Origin: an uncultured Faecalicatena sp.
GTDB lineage: Bacteria; Bacillota; Clostridia; Lachnospirales; Lachnospiraceae
Assembly: GCA_948468385.1 (NCBI GenBank)
Contig: CAOKHZ010000006.1
Location: 93,697 to 157,696 of the forward strand
DNA length: 64,000 nt
Reading direction: 5' to 3'
The first letter of the stretch is position 1. Each line of letters opens with the position of its first letter. The notes beneath the pieces are model-generated. The model made no database searches, had not been told where the DNA came from, and saw nothing but the letters and a program-made list of their open reading frames with translations. Positions 34,955 through 41,280 of this stretch are shown one piece after another. The position numbers were made by a program, and so were the translations under genes.

Positions 34955-35168
34955 GTATAATATGAACACTTGGCGAGGTGTTTTCGAGCCTAGTGAGAAT
35001 ATATACCTGGCCACTTAGCGAGGTTTTCCACGAGCTTAGTGGACATAGTATAATATGAGCACTTGGCGAGGCTTTCCGAGCCTAGTGAGAATATATACCT
35101 GGCCACTTAGCGAGGTTTTCCACGAGCTTAGTGGACATGGTATAATATGAACACTTGGCGAGGTTTTT
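34955..35168. repeat. Tandem 92-93 bp hairpin repeats with promoter-like ends
   Basis: Two full units (34955-35047, 35048-35139) and the start of a third (35140-35168). Each unit begins GTATAATATGA, then carries two related hairpins: CACTTGGCGAGG...CGAGCCTAGTG and CCACTTAGCGAGG...GAGCTTAGTGG, joined by AGAATATATACCTGG. Every unit therefore has a TATAAT in front of a hairpin. The array fills most of the 496-bp gap between the GH3 gene and the GGDEF-like gene; the rest of the gap shows no gene. An inverted single copy is at 36890-36919. Confidence 0.88.
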
Positions 35169-35209: not shown

Positions 35210-35881
35210 ATGAAAAAATTTAACATATACAAGAGCGTGCAATTCATTTTATTGGCCGTCATCATGGCCGTCGGCCTATACATGGTCTTGATCAACCCGG
35301 AAATTTCTGCCAACGCGTCGATTCGCATGACGTGCACCTTGCTTTTGGGCTCGGTCGGGCTTTCCCTCTTGTTCACGGTGATAGATTTCATCTTTTTTAC
35401 CTCTCCCCAAAATCGGCGGAAGTTGGGACTGTCCATATTTTTCGACCCGGTGGCGGGCATCGCGAACCGCCACGGTTGTGACGTTTTAATTGAAAAATAT
35501 TGGGATAAGCCGTTGCCAAAGAACATCGGATGCATCATGTTCGAATTGACGAACCTAAAGGAAATAAACCAGACATACGGACATCTGCAAGGAAACAAGC
35601 TGATACATGACTTTTCAAGCTTTTTGCAGGAAGCCTCCCTTGACCTTTGTTTCGTCGGACGCAATGGCGGGAACAAGTTCCTTGCCGTTTTTGAAATTTG
35701 TGATTATGAAAAAATTAAAACCTTTCTGGACCATCTTGACAATAACGTAAGCAAGCATAACAAGATGCCGGACATCCATCCGATTCGCTTTCATTTCGGC
35801 ATCGCGTTTGACGAAGGTTCAAAAGTCCGCACGATTACAGAATTAATCGCCCTTGCGGATAAACGAATTTACAATACATAA
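35210..35881 (+). CDS. Membrane protein with degenerate GGDEF domain
   Basis: A 223-residue protein. Two N-terminal spans (about 10-28 and 40-60), then a GGDEF-fold domain: DPVAGIANRHGCD matches the D(x)LTGLxNR start and LALADKRIY the end (ALYxAK). The active site loop reads GRNGGNKFL in place of GGDEF/GGEEF, so the metal-binding and catalytic acids are lost and no diguanylate cyclase activity is expected. It could bind a nucleotide or act as a scaffold. Start at 35210 with AGGAGG 10 bases upstream. It is the first gene of the locus with PilT- and GspF-like proteins. Confidence 0.78.
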   Translation: MKKFNIYKSVQFILLAVIMAVGLYMVLINPEISANASIRMTCTLLLGSVGLSLLFTVIDFIFFTSPQNRRKLGLSIFFDPVAGIANRHGCDVLIEKYWDKPLPKNIGCIMFELTNLKEINQTYGHLQGNKLIHDFSSFLQEASLDLCFVGRNGGNKFLAVFEICDYEKIKTFLDHLDNNVSKHNKMPDIHPIRFHFGIAFDEGSKVRTITELIALADKRIYNT

Positions 35882-35919
35882 CGACAATACCAAAACCTGA
35901 CAGAAAGGAGACCTCGGAA

Positions 35920-36873
35920 ATGCGCAAAAATCCACTTTTTTGTGGTATTTTTCTCATGATATTCCTGATGGCCTTTTTATCCATCGGCTGCACGGGGAAC
36001 GCCAAGGATTCCTCGTCCCCTTCCAATGGCAAAAACACCAAAAACCATACGGAGGAAAGAAGGGTTACCTCGCAGGACTGCCTGCTTCCCGTGGCTTCGG
36101 GCAGCATCGTTTATGGAAATGACGCGGTTTCCATCGACGCGTCAAACACGTCGGAAGGATACGTCATGGTATGCTACCAGGGTGCCGTCGATAAAGTAAA
36201 GCTGCAAATTACCACGCCAGACCAGACGACTTACACCTACAATCTGGCAATTGGCTCCTACGAGACTTTCCCTTTGCAAGGCGGGAACGGAACTTATGGC
36301 ATGAAGATACTGGAGCACGCCTATGACGACAAATACTCCGTTTTGTTTACCCAGGACATCGACGTCACAATAACCGACGAATTCAAGCCATTCTTATACC
36401 CGAACCAGTACGTTTGGTTCGAGCAGGATTATAGCACCGTCAATTTTGCCAGGACGCTTTCCGAAGATTCCTCGAACGATTTGGATTACGTGGAGCAGGT
36501 ATACCTTTATGTAATCGGAAACATTAAATATGACGAGGAGCTTGCCGAGACCGTGACCTCCGGGTATCTTCCAAACATTGACGATACCATGCGCACGAAA
36601 AAGGGAATCTGTTTTGACTATGCCTCCTTGATGGCGGCAATGTTGCGTTCCCAGGACGTGCCGACCAAGCTCGTGGTCGGTTACTCCGGGGATGCCTACC
36701 ATGCATGGATCAGCGTCTATCTGGACGAGATCGGCTGGGTTGACGACATCATCCAGTTTGACGGCAAAAGCTGGTCACTGATGGATCCGACGCTCGGCGC
36801 GAACAACAGTAGCTCTTCCGTGAAAAAATATGTCGGCGACGGGAGCAACTATACGGTGAAGTATTTTTATTAA
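35920..36873 (+). CDS. Transglutaminase-like lipoprotein
   Basis: A 317-residue lipoprotein with lipobox LSIGC (Cys about 24). The C-terminal half is a transglutaminase-core domain: KKGICFDYASLMAAMLRS (nucleophile Cys), GDAYHAWISVY (His) and WSLMDPTLGA (Asp), the full papain-like triad. The part before it (~45-150) is beta rich. Such enzymes can crosslink, cleave or modify proteins outside the cell. It lies 38 bases after the GGDEF-like gene and before the GspF-like gene, so it may process or anchor filament or surface proteins made by the same locus (inference). AAAGGAG lies before the ATG. Confidence 0.85.
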   Translation: MRKNPLFCGIFLMIFLMAFLSIGCTGNAKDSSSPSNGKNTKNHTEERRVTSQDCLLPVASGSIVYGNDAVSIDASNTSEGYVMVCYQGAVDKVKLQITTPDQTTYTYNLAIGSYETFPLQGGNGTYGMKILEHAYDDKYSVLFTQDIDVTITDEFKPFLYPNQYVWFEQDYSTVNFARTLSEDSSNDLDYVEQVYLYVIGNIKYDEELAETVTSGYLPNIDDTMRTKKGICFDYASLMAAMLRSQDVPTKLVVGYSGDAYHAWISVYLDEIGWVDDIIQFDGKSWSLMDPTLGANNSSSSVKKYVGDGSNYTVKYFY

Positions 36874-36879
36874 TAAGGA

Positions 36880-36929
36880 AGTTGTGCTGCCACCAGGCTT
36901 GAAACCACCTCGCCAAGTGCCACACAACT
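36880..36929. repeat. Hairpin holding an inverted copy of the 34955 repeat
   Basis: AGTTGTG and CACAACT form the outer stem. The inside, 36890-36919, is the reverse complement of the CACTTGGCGAGG...AGCCTGGTGG hairpin unit of the upstream array. It starts 7 bases after the lipoprotein stop. Confidence 0.7.
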
Positions 36930-36990
36930 ACATTCGCACCTAAGCACCTAAATGACAAGTGCCAAGTGCTCATAGTAAGGGAGGACAATC

Positions 36991-38025
36991 ATGAAACCAT
37001 TTTCCAACATAGAACTTTCTTCATTCTGCGGCCAGACCGCCCTGATTTTAAAATCAGGCATTTCCGTCACGGAGGGACTTTCCATCATGCTGGAGGATGC
37101 CGCCTCCCCGGAAGAAAAAGAAGTATTGGAACGCCTTCTCGAAGGCATGCAAGAAACGGGACAATTGTACCAGGCCATGGAAAGGACGGAAATTTATCCT
37201 TCCTACATGATCCACATGGTACAGATTGGCGAAGAAACCGGCACGCTAGACGAAGTCATGGAATCCCTGCAAAACCATTATGAACGCGAAGATTCCATCA
37301 GCAAGAGCATTCGTAATTCGATTACATATCCCATGATCATGACCGGGATGATGGCCGTCGTCATCGTCGTCCTCCTCGTGAAGGTCATGCCCATTTTCAA
37401 CCAGGTATTTATCCAGCTCGGCACGGAAATGACGGGATTCTCCCGCGTGCTGATGGACATGGGAACCATTATCAACCGTTATGCCATCGTGTTCATCGTC
37501 ATTCTCGCGGCCATTGCCTGCCTCGCCCTTTTCGGCACGCGCACGGCCGGCGGACGGGCGATGGTGCAAAAGCTTGGATACAAACTTCGTTTTACGCGCG
37601 TCATCTATGAAGAGCTGGCCGCCTGCCGATTTGCCAGCGGCATGGCGCTCACCCTTAGCAGCGGGCTCAATCCGGATCGAAGCATGGAACTGGTACACTC
37701 CTTAAACGACGACCCTGTTTTCCAGAAAAAGCTTGACCGCTGCCAGAATGAAATCAACGATGGAAAAGATTTGTCACAAGCACTTTTCACCTCCGGGATG
37801 TTTACGGGGATTTACGCCCGCATGGCCTCCATCGGTTCCAAGACTGGCTCCATGGACCAGGTCATGGAGCAGATTGCCGAGCTTTATCAGGATGACATCG
37901 ACACCCGCATGAACAACGTCCTCGCGGTGTTGGAACCCACCCTGGTCATCTTGCTCTCCTTGATCGTGGGTGTAATCCTCTTGTCGGTAATGTTGCCCCT
38001 GATGGGAATCATGTCAAGCCTGTGA
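36991..38025 (+). CDS. GspF/PilC-type platform membrane protein
   Basis: A 344-residue type II secretion F-family protein. Two homologous cytoplasmic T2SSF domains (about 8-125 and 205-335), with spans at ~112-135, ~160-182 and ~315-340. Typical signatures are LKSGISVTEGLSIM and GEETGTLDEVMESL in the first and LTLSSGLNPDRSMELV and GSKTGSMDQVMEQI in the second. The protein forms the inner-membrane platform on which the motor ATPase acts during filament assembly. GGGAGG precedes the ATG. The matching ATPase is PilT-like at 40144. Confidence 0.9.
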   Translation: MKPFSNIELSSFCGQTALILKSGISVTEGLSIMLEDAASPEEKEVLERLLEGMQETGQLYQAMERTEIYPSYMIHMVQIGEETGTLDEVMESLQNHYEREDSISKSIRNSITYPMIMTGMMAVVIVVLLVKVMPIFNQVFIQLGTEMTGFSRVLMDMGTIINRYAIVFIVILAAIACLALFGTRTAGGRAMVQKLGYKLRFTRVIYEELAACRFASGMALTLSSGLNPDRSMELVHSLNDDPVFQKKLDRCQNEINDGKDLSQALFTSGMFTGIYARMASIGSKTGSMDQVMEQIAELYQDDIDTRMNNVLAVLEPTLVILLSLIVGVILLSVMLPLMGIMSSL

Positions 38026-38047
38026 CGGAGGCGGAAAGGAGCTTTTC

Positions 38048-38380
38048 ATGAGTCGATTTACATACAAGAAGCAACCGCGCACCGTGCACAAATTTTTGCT
38101 TTCCGTCTGCTTGTTTTTCGCCATCCTCTTCCTTTTCGTAGGAGGCATCTCGTCGTTGTCCTCCGGCACGAGGCAACGGCAAAAGGAAAGCCTTGAAAAT
38201 GCCATCATGCGCGGCATCACTTATTGCTATGCCGTGGAGGGGGCCTATCCCGAAAGCCTTGATTATCTTCGGGAAAACTATGGACTTACTTATGATGAGA
38301 ATTTATTTTTTGTAGACTATCGCGTTACCGGTTCGAACATTTTGCCGGACGTGACAATCATTGAAAGGAAGGAACAGTAA
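38048..38380 (+). CDS. Small pseudopilin-like protein
   Basis: 110 residues: a short basic N-terminus, one span (~15-35), then AIMRGITYCYAVEGAYPESLDYLRENYG, which resembles the helix-to-loop part of GspG-type pseudopilins (A..Y...G.YP.sL..L). There is no G-F-x-x-x-E prepilin peptidase site. It would be a single-span minor pilin or pilin-like subunit, C-terminus outside. AAAGGAG lies before the ATG; its stop overlaps the next start by one base (TAATG). Confidence 0.65.
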   Translation: MSRFTYKKQPRTVHKFLLSVCLFFAILFLFVGGISSLSSGTRQRQKESLENAIMRGITYCYAVEGAYPESLDYLRENYGLTYDENLFFVDYRVTGSNILPDVTIIERKEQ

Positions 38381-38862
38381 TGCGGTTTCGTACAAAGCAT
38401 AAGCACATGATCGATTTCTTGTTTCCCGTCGCGCTATTTTTTGTATTTGCCTTGTCCGCGCTTACGGTCATTCTCCTTGCGGCCAGAATTTACCAGTCTA
38501 CCACCGAACATTCTTCGTTTAATTATACGTCGCGGACGTGCTTGTCCTACATCGCGGAAAAGATTCATCAAAACGATGTGGGGGGAACTGCCTCCATCGG
38601 GACTTTTGACGGATGCGACGCGTTAGTTTTAGGGCAGGCTCACGGGGAAGACACCTATTATACATACATTTATGTTCATGAAAATGAATTGAAAGAACTC
38701 TTTGTTAAAGAAGGTGCCGAAGTAAAAGCCGCAGACGGGAAAATGATTCTCAAGGTGACGGATTTTTCCATGGAACAGCTTTCCGACGACTTATTGCGTT
38801 TTTACTGCATTGACGAAAACGGCCAGGAAAGTTCCTCCGTTTTATGTATAAGAAGCCATTAA
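38380..38862 (+). CDS. DUF4860-like single-span membrane protein
   Basis: 160 residues: basic N-terminus (RFRTKHKH), one span (~12-35), then an outside domain with beta-strand character (YTYIYVHENELKELF, DGKMILKVTDFSM). The pattern resembles proteins annotated DUF4860, which are found in such gene sets in Clostridia (from memory of the family, moderate certainty). Likely a minor-pilin-like part of the filament system. Coupled by TAATG overlap to the gene before it. Confidence 0.6.
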   Translation: MRFRTKHKHMIDFLFPVALFFVFALSALTVILLAARIYQSTTEHSSFNYTSRTCLSYIAEKIHQNDVGGTASIGTFDGCDALVLGQAHGEDTYYTYIYVHENELKELFVKEGAEVKAADGKMILKVTDFSMEQLSDDLLRFYCIDENGQESSSVLCIRSH

Positions 38863-38960
38863 GACACGAGAATCCTTTACACAAGCCGTGCACGGCCCGC
38901 CCATGCAGTCCACGCATGATGACGTTTCATTTCAAACAGTAACAGAAAGGACGCACTTTT

Positions 38961-39482
38961 ATGGTACGTAAAAGCAGAGCCAGATCATCCAGTTTGTTTT
39001 TGATAGAATTGATACTTGCCATCCTCTTTTTCTCGGTTGCAAGTGCCGTTTGCGTGCAATTGTTCGTAAAGTCGCATCTCCTAAGCACGGATTCCAACGC
39101 CTTGAACCATGCCGTGAACGAATGCGCCAACGTCGCGGAAATCATCGCGTCGGCAAGCGGGGCGGACGATGCCCTGGACAAATTAGAAGCCGTGTACCCT
39201 GACGTTTCCCATGCAGAAACTGCTCCGAACTCGCAAGACGATTTTTTTGACACGACGGTTTTCGTTTTTTACGATGACGAATTCGCCGCCTGCAAGGAAG
39301 GGGAAGAGGCAGAGTATTTTCTTGCCATTCACCTTACGGAAGAACAAAACATGTTGCAAGCCCTCATGCAAGTGACAAAAACGAAAAACCCGCAAGACCT
39401 CGAACGGGCTGACAAGCAAATCATCTACGAATTAGAGACCACACACCACGTGGCAAGGAGGACGGATTATGCGCAAAGATAA
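38961..39482 (+). CDS. Prepilin-like protein with non-canonical cleavage region
   Basis: 173 residues: short basic start, then SSLFLIELILAILFFSVASAV. This matches the type IV prepilin hydrophobic helix with Glu at the place of the conserved Glu5 (x-F-L-I-E), but the residue at the expected cleavage position is Ser, not Gly. The C-terminal part is acidic and hydrophilic. It is the best pilin candidate in the locus. AGAAAGGA lies before the ATG; the 98-bp gap upstream holds nothing clear. Confidence 0.65.
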   Translation: MVRKSRARSSSLFLIELILAILFFSVASAVCVQLFVKSHLLSTDSNALNHAVNECANVAEIIASASGADDALDKLEAVYPDVSHAETAPNSQDDFFDTTVFVFYDDEFAACKEGEEAEYFLAIHLTEEQNMLQALMQVTKTKNPQDLERADKQIIYELETTHHVARRTDYAQR

Positions 39483-40029
39483 ACAACAATCCTCTTTTGT
39501 AAATATCGGCTCCTCCTCGTTATTGGTCATATTTTTGATACTATGCCTTGTCACTTTTGCCATCTTGTCCGTTTCCAGTGCCAAGAGCGACTATTCTTTC
39601 AGCGAGCGGCTGGCAGAGCATAAAACAAAGTATTACGAGGCATCCGCAAGGGCAGAACGCATTGCCGGAGAAATCGATGATGTTTTGTACGAACTGGCAC
39701 AAGAGAGCGATACAAAAAGCGACGGCAAAAACGGTATGACAGAAAATGCTACGGCACGAAACGGCAATACGGCCAGCTACGTTGCCGCCGTGACGAAAGC
39801 TTTTGACGGCATGCAGATTGACAACGTCATGCTCTTTTGCACCACCGAAGACGACCTTTTTATTTCTTACGAAATCCCGATAGGGGAAAAACAGAAATTA
39901 GAAGTGCGCCTTCTGGTCACCGATTACACAAAAGAAGATACCTATTATAAAACCGTGGCATGGCAAGTCGTGCCTTCTGGAACGTGGCAAGGGGACGAAA
40001 GCCTAAACCTCATGCCCGTCACACAATAA
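39469..40029 (+). CDS. Single-span membrane protein of the filament-like locus
   Basis: 186 residues: hydrophilic start, span at ~17-38 (SSSLLVIFLILCLVTFAIL), then a helical segment (YSFSERLAEHKTKYYEASARAERIAGEIDDVL) and a beta-rich C-terminal domain. The shape is that of a minor pilin, without Glu5 and without a Gly cleavage site at the right place (an NIG precedes the span). It overlaps the gene before it by 14 bases, with AAGGAGG inside that gene, so the two are coupled. No better assignment. Confidence 0.6.
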   Translation: MRKDKQQSSFVNIGSSSLLVIFLILCLVTFAILSVSSAKSDYSFSERLAEHKTKYYEASARAERIAGEIDDVLYELAQESDTKSDGKNGMTENATARNGNTASYVAAVTKAFDGMQIDNVMLFCTTEDDLFISYEIPIGEKQKLEVRLLVTDYTKEDTYYKTVAWQVVPSGTWQGDESLNLMPVTQ

Positions 40030-40035
40030 TGTGAT

Positions 40036-40062
40036 GATACCAGGGTCAAAAGGTCACGTATG
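40036..40062. repeat. 27-bp repeat before pilT, with adjoining hairpin
   Basis: Contains ACCAGGGTCAAAAGGTCA and matches 41198-41224 with one change. The hairpin GACATGC-TTGCAT-GCATGTC (40062-40081) follows at once. The pair of repeats brackets the pilT gene. Confidence 0.8.
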
Positions 40063-40143
40063 ACATGCTTGCATGCATGTCAATACATGGTCTTGGAATC
40101 CGCAAAACACCTCAATATACTCACAGTAAGGAGTTGATTTTTC

Positions 40144-41199
40144 ATGAATTTAAAAGAAATATTGGAGCAGGCAATCAAGGAGCAGGCATCCGACGTGTTC
40201 ATCGTCGCCGGACTTCCCGTATCCTTTCGAAAAAACAACGTCATACACCAGATTAACGAAGAAAAGCTTTTCCCAACGGACACGGAAAGCTTGCTAGCCG
40301 AAATATACGGGCAGGCCGGAGGACGCAGCCTGAAAATCCTTCACGACATGGGAGACGACGATTTTTCCTTCGCCATTCCCGGTTTGTCACGTTTCCGTGT
40401 CAGCGCCTATAAGCAAAGGGGGGCGCTGTCGGCTGTCATCCGCATCATTTCCTTCAACCTTCCCGATTTTAAAGATTTGGGAATTCCCGAGCACGTCATC
40501 CACCTCGGCGACGGCGGGAAGGGAATGGTGCTCGTCACTGGTCCGGCCGGAAGTGGAAAATCGACCACCCTCGCGTGCATTATTGATCAAATTAACAAAA
40601 AATCGCACAAGCACATCATCACGCTGGAGGATCCGCTGGAATACCTTCACCGGCACGACCAGAGCATCGTGAGCCAACGTGAAATCAACGTGGACACGGA
40701 AAATTACGTGACCGCCCTGCGAGCCGCGCTGCGCCAGAGTCCGGACGTAATCCTTCTCGGCGAAATGCGCGACTACGAGACGATTAACGTCGCCATGACG
40801 GCCGCCGAAACCGGACATTTGCTGCTCTCCACGCTCCACACCATCGGCGCGGCCAACACGATAGACCGTATCATCGACGTATTTCCGGCCAACCAGCAAC
40901 GGCAGATTGCCATACAGCTTTCGACGGTGCTGACCGCGGTCGTGTCACAGCAGCTTGTCCCGACGGTGGATGACAAGATCGTTCCGGCTCTGGAAATCAT
41001 GACCGTGACCCCGGCCATCCGCAACATGATTCGGGACAACAAGGTACACCAGATTGACGGGTTGATTTATTCCTCCATGAAGGAAGACATGATATCCATG
41101 GACGGAAGCCTGCAAAACTTGTGCAAACAAGGGAAAATCAGCAAAGATACCGCATTAAAATATGCAACGAACCCAGAAATGCTGAGCAAGAAACTGTGA
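40144..41199 (+). CDS. pilT: PilT-type twitching / retraction ATPase
   Basis: 351 residues. N-terminal PAS-like domain (SDVFIVAGLPVSFRKNNVI), then RecA-type core: Walker A GPAGSGKST (133-141), Asp box TLEDPLEY (160-167), Walker B DVILLGEMRD (201-210), His box HLLLSTLHT (225-233). The segment PAIRNMIRDNK matches the AIRNLIRE motif typical of PilT rather than of the extension ATPase PilB. No PilB or GspE lies nearby, so this would be the only motor of the locus. AAGGAG lies upstream of the ATG. A second copy of a 27-bp repeat covers its stop codon. Confidence 0.9.
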   Translation: MNLKEILEQAIKEQASDVFIVAGLPVSFRKNNVIHQINEEKLFPTDTESLLAEIYGQAGGRSLKILHDMGDDDFSFAIPGLSRFRVSAYKQRGALSAVIRIISFNLPDFKDLGIPEHVIHLGDGGKGMVLVTGPAGSGKSTTLACIIDQINKKSHKHIITLEDPLEYLHRHDQSIVSQREINVDTENYVTALRAALRQSPDVILLGEMRDYETINVAMTAAETGHLLLSTLHTIGAANTIDRIIDVFPANQQRQIAIQLSTVLTAVVSQQLVPTVDDKIVPALEIMTVTPAIRNMIRDNKVHQIDGLIYSSMKEDMISMDGSLQNLCKQGKISKDTALKYATNPEMLSKKL

Positions 41200-41242: not shown

Positions 41243-41280
41243 TTATATTGCGGGGCAAATGTTTCTGCCCCGCAGTATAA
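41243..41280. terminator. Bidirectional terminator-like hairpin, GGGGCA family
   Basis: TTATATTGCGGGGCA pairs with TGCCCCGCAGTATAA over 15 pairs (one G-U), loop of 8. It lies between the convergent pilT and TPR-like genes. A relative is at 45227-45261. Confidence 0.7.

Follow-up and report, generated by a model that had tools for sequence, protein, structure and literature searches.

A candidate reduced type IV filament machine with PilT as its ATPase and a transglutaminase-like lipoprotein, spread over the order Lachnospirales

Introduction

Four proteins, namely pilins, a prepilin peptidase, an extension ATPase and a platform protein, are described as present in every type IV filament system (PMC10191384). 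In a survey of such systems, the model given for the type IVa pilus (T4aP) makes the prepilin peptidase PilD mandatory and demands eight genes (PMC6668835). Here we describe a locus from an uncultured Faecalicatena sp. (Lachnospiraceae, Lachnospirales; assembly GCA_948468385.1, contig CAOKHZ010000006.1), located in a stretch of 64,000 nucleotides that we refer to as the window. The locus holds a block of genes for a transglutaminase-like lipoprotein (TG), a PilC/GspF-type platform protein (F), four small single-span proteins (s1 to s4) and a PilT ATPase (T). The block is without two of those four proteins, the peptidase and the extension ATPase, and for three species neither was found anywhere in the draft assembly. 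We consider the locus to be a new, reduced variant of the type IV filament machinery, and the system to be spread over the order. Rule-based surveys would miss such a block, because the T4aP model requires PilD and eight genes. No account of this system was found in the open-licence PMC literature. A first-pass annotation of the window had offered two readings, that the missing parts are supplied from elsewhere or that the block makes a peptidase-independent pseudopilus driven by a PilT-like motor, with its product crosslinked or anchored by the transglutaminase.

Results

Gene content of the block

Eight genes on the + strand stand in a row from 35210 to 41199, and the Pfam and NCBIfam matches, together with the motifs, agree with the list of genes that the first-pass annotation had given. 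The first of the eight, a GGDEF gene, is described below with the flanking elements. TG (35920–36873) was recognized by Pfam as Transglut_core with 75.4 bits and has a lipobox-like SIGC in its sequence. Its catalytic motifs are kept in nearly all homologues (Cys in 127, His in 125 and Asp in 123 of 129), and for this reason TG is probably an active enzyme. The platform protein F (36991–38025, 344 residues) matches T2SSF in Pfam with 159.2 bits and Myxococcus PilC in the PDB at E 1.7e-35; it is without about 55–60 N-terminal residues that are present in the 399-residue forms of the basal blocks described below. T (40144–41199) has Walker motifs and AIRNMIR, reaches 422.1 bits against TIGR01420, where the cut-off is 319.1, and matches PilT structures in the PDB at E 1e-90. 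The AIRNxIR motif has a role in retraction. Among 126 homologues of T it was found in 90, Walker A in 111 and GE[ML]RD in 125. The NCBIfam cut-offs for ComGA and ComGB were missed by the ATPase (136.9 vs 300 bits) and by the platform (122.7 vs 240 bits), and none of the genes of the window was called ComGC to ComGG by Pfam or NCBIfam.

Each of the four small proteins has one hydrophobic segment. Pfam identified s2 (38380–38862) as DUF4860 with 106.1 bits; no family was assigned by Pfam or NCBIfam to s1 (38048–38380), which has a conserved CYA-EG-YP core, to s3 (38961–39482) or to s4 (39469–40029). The earlier observation that none of the four proteins of the window has a G-F-x-x-x-E prepilin site holds, and it can be refined, as s3 has a degenerate segment of prepilin type, S|LFLIE, with Glu at position +5, a residue found in 143 of 143 homologues, and s4 reads G|SSSLL without Glu at +5.

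Missing components

Three draft genomes, G054, G169 and G172 (100, 99 and 96% complete, respectively), have the full block, no A24 peptidase, and the block PilT as their sole T2SSE ATPase above the cut-off. Since they have neither an A24 peptidase nor any other type II/IV ATPase, supply from elsewhere fails as an account of the system as a whole, and in these relatives the other proposal, of a pseudopilus that does without the peptidase and has PilT as its motor, is favored.

All 142 block-bearing genomes were searched for the A24 family, and no match below E 0.1 was obtained in G054, G166, G169 and G172; a fifth genome, G034, also had no match but is 60% complete and was left out of the counts. 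The search for T2SSE covered 80 block-bearing genomes chosen from the 142 for diversity, five more, and the source genome, with G166 outside it. In the survey of 80, scoring was confined to the 21 best first-look candidates of each genome, and the figures hold among the matches listed; all candidates were scored for G054, G169, G172 and G068, which gave one match each. When PilB-class is defined as a best E below 1e-100, half of the 80 genomes have a PilB-class match and 40 have none, among the matches listed. Individual genomes vary. G078 has an A24 match only under the cut-off, yet two PilB-class matches; the single T2SSE match of G114 is a PilB, and the block marker lies there 1.3 kb from a contig start. 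In G068, which is assembled as one contig, the sites of s2 and s3 are canonical, a single A24 peptidase is present, PilM has no match, and PilT is the only T2SSE ATPase.

The source genome (94.4% complete) has no PilB or GspE, as its only proteins above the T2SSE cut-off are two Tad-type ATPases and the block PilT. It has three A24 peptidases, none of them inside the block, and because of these a peptidase supplied in trans is possible in the source host; to this extent the first of the two earlier proposals stands. One of the three (171 residues; L048 7825–8340, contig C21) is located among genes for an ABC transporter, a CAAX-type protease-like protein and others, and no pilus genes were seen nearby. 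PilM_2 reaches 21.2 bits at most in the source genome, where the cut-off is 27. A complete pilB/pilD/pilM-O set elsewhere in the genome had been named as the mark of an ordinary split pilus; PilB/GspE and a PilM_2 above the cut-off are absent from the source genome, but the peptidases are there. In the block, neither PilN nor PilO lies between s2 and s3, and no genome search was made for these two. PilM was above the cut-off in 8 of 20 genomes (G049, G061, G020, G161, G332, G393, G186 and G246), although some of the eight matches fall in long frames unlike PilM, and G054, G169, G172, G068, G044 and G391 gave no PilM match.

Ancestry of the small proteins

A relative in the order, G049, has a complete T4aP operon (locus L047) with the gene order PilD-PilB-PilT-PilC-two pilins-s2-PilM-N-O-s3-s4, in which PilN and PilO were assigned from place and size. 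The homologues of s2, s3 and s4 in this operon were matched at E 4e-16, 1.5e-11 and 1.2e-11, respectively, and that of s2 has an intact N-methylation motif. As these homologues reside inside a complete PilD-PilB-PilT-PilC-pilin operon, s2, s3 and s4 are, judged by homology, descendants of type IV minor pilins.

Eight blocks of families f9, f16 and f22, which we call basal, have the PilT gene first, and TG is missing from seven of them. In all eight, s3 has Gly at −1, Phe at +1 and Glu at +5, and an SPIII signal is present; the canonical site is found in two of the eight s2 proteins. Profiles made from core members only retrieve every basal s1, s2, s3 and s4 protein (E 8e-5 to 2e-30). Among 135 core s3 proteins the residue at −1 is Ser in 65, Gly in 24, Arg in 13, Asn in 13, Pro in 6 and others in the rest. 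Arg, Asn and Pro make up 32 of the 135, Pro being the residue in G166, G169 and G172, and Glu at +5 is kept in every one. Core s2 has Asp or Glu at +5 in 115 of 135 and is without Gly at −1, and the G|SSLIE form of the basal s2 was found in no core member. The core lineage shows cleavage sites that have eroded, an acidic +5 residue that stayed, and a TG gene that joined the operon.

The prepilin motif of s1 is not convincing, a loose scan having matched 3 of 145 s1 proteins, and we infer s1 to be pilin-like from its core pattern and from its place between F and s2. In the s4 gene of G054 (L040 8250–8350) no ATG, GTG or TTG was seen ahead of the hydrophobic segment; another start codon may serve.

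PilT as companion of the block

Seven genomes in which the block has no linked T were searched, and all seven have a PilT elsewhere. In three of these (G186, G313 and G335) no PilB-class ATPase was found among the matches listed; in G285 the PilT adjoins a PilB. Because PilT is present in all seven and a PilB-class ATPase is absent from three, the block goes with PilT and not with PilB; its companion is a PilT. A tree of 92 of the 142 PilT sequences, in which the window T was left out and that of a congener 97% identical to it (L032) was included, separates a core-block clade (67 rows, support 100/100), a basal-block clade (8 rows, 100/99) and a clade of six unlinked PilT proteins (100/99). 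One row of this tree, L207_T4PpilT, is a PilB fragment, and the PilT of G285 was left out.

The unlinked PilT genes of L202, L203, L204 and L206 adjoin a ComM-type (magnesium chelatase) gene, which was identified by Pfam in L204 and by the look of the sequence in the other three; some also adjoin an HD-domain gene, recognized weakly by Pfam in L203.

Spread, gene order and selection

Of 395 genomes surveyed in the order, 142 have the s2 marker, DUF4860, each with a single match, and these represent 64 of 177 genera; all genomes of this survey other than the source are at least 95% complete. In the first sample the marker was present in 21 of 61 genomes. Named carriers among gut commensals include Coprococcus comes, Eubacterium ramulus, Faecalicatena contorta and Oliverpabstia intestinalis. 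Among 77 loci mapped with profiles, 53 have the order TG-F-s1-s2-s3-s4-T; seven read T-F-s1-s2-s3-s4, one has this order with TG behind, eight have s1 to s4 without a linked T, four have no TG, and in two TG has moved. The last two are L035, broken off at a contig end, and L150 of G108, a damaged block in which F is split in two reading frames and s1 and T were not found. Among 80 loci taken from named genomes, 60 likewise have the full order; this set overlaps in part with the 77 (L225 and L031 are one contig, judged by length). Each of the seven genes has a ratio of nonsynonymous to synonymous substitution rates (dN/dS) of 0.02–0.18 against two congeners, which indicates purifying selection. 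The recurrence of gene content and order and the low dN/dS amount to conservation beyond chance, and the co-occurrence in other genomes that the first-pass annotation had proposed to look for is there. The G+C content gives no sign of a recent import of the block, being 0.494 against 0.492 for the window.

Some loci contain further genes. In G037 a sortase gene (113 bits, L038 5250–5933) sits between TG and F. Genes for extracytoplasmic function-type sigma factors lie directly upstream of TG in L030 (2187–2777) and L037 (10521–11147), each adjoining a gene without a known family.

Flanking elements

The gene at 35210–35881 (+) encodes a membrane protein with a degenerate GGDEF domain (PF00990, 60.6 bits; motif RNGGNKF). 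The start at 35210 that had been proposed for it is the best placement, with AGGAGG just upstream. In 158 loci scanned, 41 open reading frames besides that of the window match it at E <= 1e-15, a count in which some loci duplicate a single contig and which includes one protein of 1607 residues. Since only some of the loci have the gene linked to the block, it was rejected as a core part, and the conserved unit comprises seven genes. A ComM gene was likewise rejected as a flank gene of the block (0 of 158 loci).

Ahead of the operon, and assigned to it by position alone, is a 92-bp tandem repeat in 2.3 copies (34955–35167, +). Promoter-like boxes are found in every copy, together with two near-palindromes around ACTTRGCGAGG. 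The window has six occurrences of this pattern where 0.11 would be expected, and among 304 other loci three contain it. A terminator-like hairpin of 15 pairs (41243–41280, +) is located 3' of T.

Discussion

We propose, with a probability of about 0.6, that the locus encodes a reduced form of the type IV filament machine, which descends from an operon resembling the complete T4aP operon of G049 and works as a short motor-driven complex. Homology and gene order support this derivation, by which the block would have kept PilT, PilC and the minor-pilin set and shed both the prepilin peptidase and the extension ATPase, along with PilM-N-O and any recognizable major pilin. In the mechanism that we envisage, s1 to s4 would stay largely uncleaved and membrane-anchored, and would sit on the PilC platform as a complex of the tip or priming type. 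The tip complex of other filaments is described as capped by a subunit without Glu5 (PMC10191384); s2 to s4 would correspond to this complex, and s4, which has no Glu5, would be the cap. A PilT hexamer would be the dedicated motor and would push the complex over a small distance across the wall and draw it back, and what is moved would be a stub or piston and not a long pilus. The target of TG may be the wall or the outer portion of the complex; crosslinking by TG, as suggested in the first-pass annotation, is speculation. On weak hints, most of which point to DNA uptake, the likeliest job of the machine would be DNA uptake or surface contact. If the proposal is true, nature has provided a test of what PilT is capable of without PilB and of whether pilins need to be cleaved.

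Several observations weigh against this proposal. An A24 match above the cut-off is present in 137 of the 142 block-bearing genomes. Gly or Ala is retained at −1 in 27 of the 135 core s3 proteins, with Ala in the peptidase-less G054, although the s3 of the window is not among them, and Gly precedes the s4 segment in 139 of 142 by a loose scan. As most carriers have an A24 peptidase, some s3 proteins have Gly or Ala at −1 and most s4 proteins have Gly, cleavage in trans is possible in many hosts. The three genomes that carry the argument are drafts of 90 (G054), 130 (G169) and 360 (G172) contigs with 2–3% contamination. In the PilT tree, the forks that join the core, basal and unlinked clades are weak. 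Profiles of s1 and s2 gave no pilin among PDB sequences, the weak matches being papain for s1 (E 2.5) and a dynein regulatory subunit for s2 (E 0.015).

The question then is whether another account would explain the block better. A competence-type pseudopilus, that is, a DNA-uptake filament and counterpart of ComGA-GG with PilT as its motor, is a possible but tentative account that we hold to be rather unlikely. The parts of the block are those listed for the Com pilus (Table 1, PMC10191384), and the unlinked PilT genes of four loci have the ComM-type neighbor noted above, whereas the block itself has no ComM in its flanks, its ATPase gets 136.9 bits against the ComGA cut-off of 300, and ComGA and ComC are absent or replaced. 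ComEC was found in 20 of 20 block-bearing genomes, including peptidase-less ones, but it was counted in block-bearing genomes only and does not discriminate. We are more doubtful of a type IV machine without a filament, in which the minor pilins, uncleaved, would form a permanent membrane complex on PilC and the sole ATPase, PilT, would drive a piston or rotor acting on the wall, with the transglutaminase-like enzyme outside. If that were true, a descendant of type IV filaments would dispense with two of four supposedly universal proteins. An ordinary split type IV pilus, with its peptidase and perhaps its extension ATPase provided in trans, for example by Tad systems or by an isolated A24 protein, we consider unlikely. 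The source genome has peptidases and Tad-type ATPases to lend, most carriers have A24, half of the surveyed ones list a PilB-class ATPase, Gly or Ala is still present at −1 in some core s3 proteins, and MSH loci are reported to be without a peptidase and may borrow one (PMC6668835). However, G054, G169 and G172 hold nothing to borrow, leaders are stated to end in Gly or Ala (PMC10191384) where 32 of the 135 core s3 proteins have Arg, Asn or Pro, with Pro in G166, G169 and G172, and no core s2 has the G|SSLIE form.

The block might also be a type II-like secretion piston, whose task would be to release or position the lipoprotein TG or a different enzyme of the envelope. Its subunits of minor-pilin type, platform and ATPase, with no recognizable major pilin, would suit this, as would the usual place of TG as first gene (53 of 77 loci) and, in one family (L038), the sortase gene that separates TG from F. 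A TG lipoprotein has its own export route, however, neither GspE nor a secretin is known in the locus, and TG is absent from seven of the eight basal blocks, all of which makes the piston improbable. Many parts are gone and L150 is visibly damaged, as would be expected of a type IV pilus operon that has lost its function and is decaying, but a dN/dS of 0.02–0.18, the kept catalytic motifs and the retention of the block in 64 of 177 genera make decay very improbable.

Comparison with known systems

One of the known systems closest to the block is the T4aP operon, as represented by L047 of G049. Both have PilT and PilC homologues and homologues of s2, s3 and s4, and T is above the cut-off of the PilT family; in contrast to the operon, the block has no PilD, PilB, PilM or recognizable major pilin, its core cleavage sites are mostly lost, and TG has been added. 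The type II secretion pseudopilus (GspG-K, GspE, GspF) shares the platform, and we take the s-proteins to resemble GspI/J/K by pattern, but the block is without GspE, and no major pseudopilin was recognized in it. The Com pilus is similar in its minimal parts, a platform, a small ATPase and several small pilins without PilM-O, and differs in that the ATPase of the block scores as PilT and not as ComGA and that no ComC-type peptidase is in the block. In the MSHA pilus of Vibrio cholerae, PilT is reported to be required for both extension and retraction (PMC9815625), although this pilus typically has a dedicated extension motor and is hence no case of PilT alone. The Tad pilus uses another ATPase and platform family, and the source genome has separate Tad-type loci; its single motor, CpaF/TadA, is a described precedent (PMC12019362) for one ATPase serving both directions.

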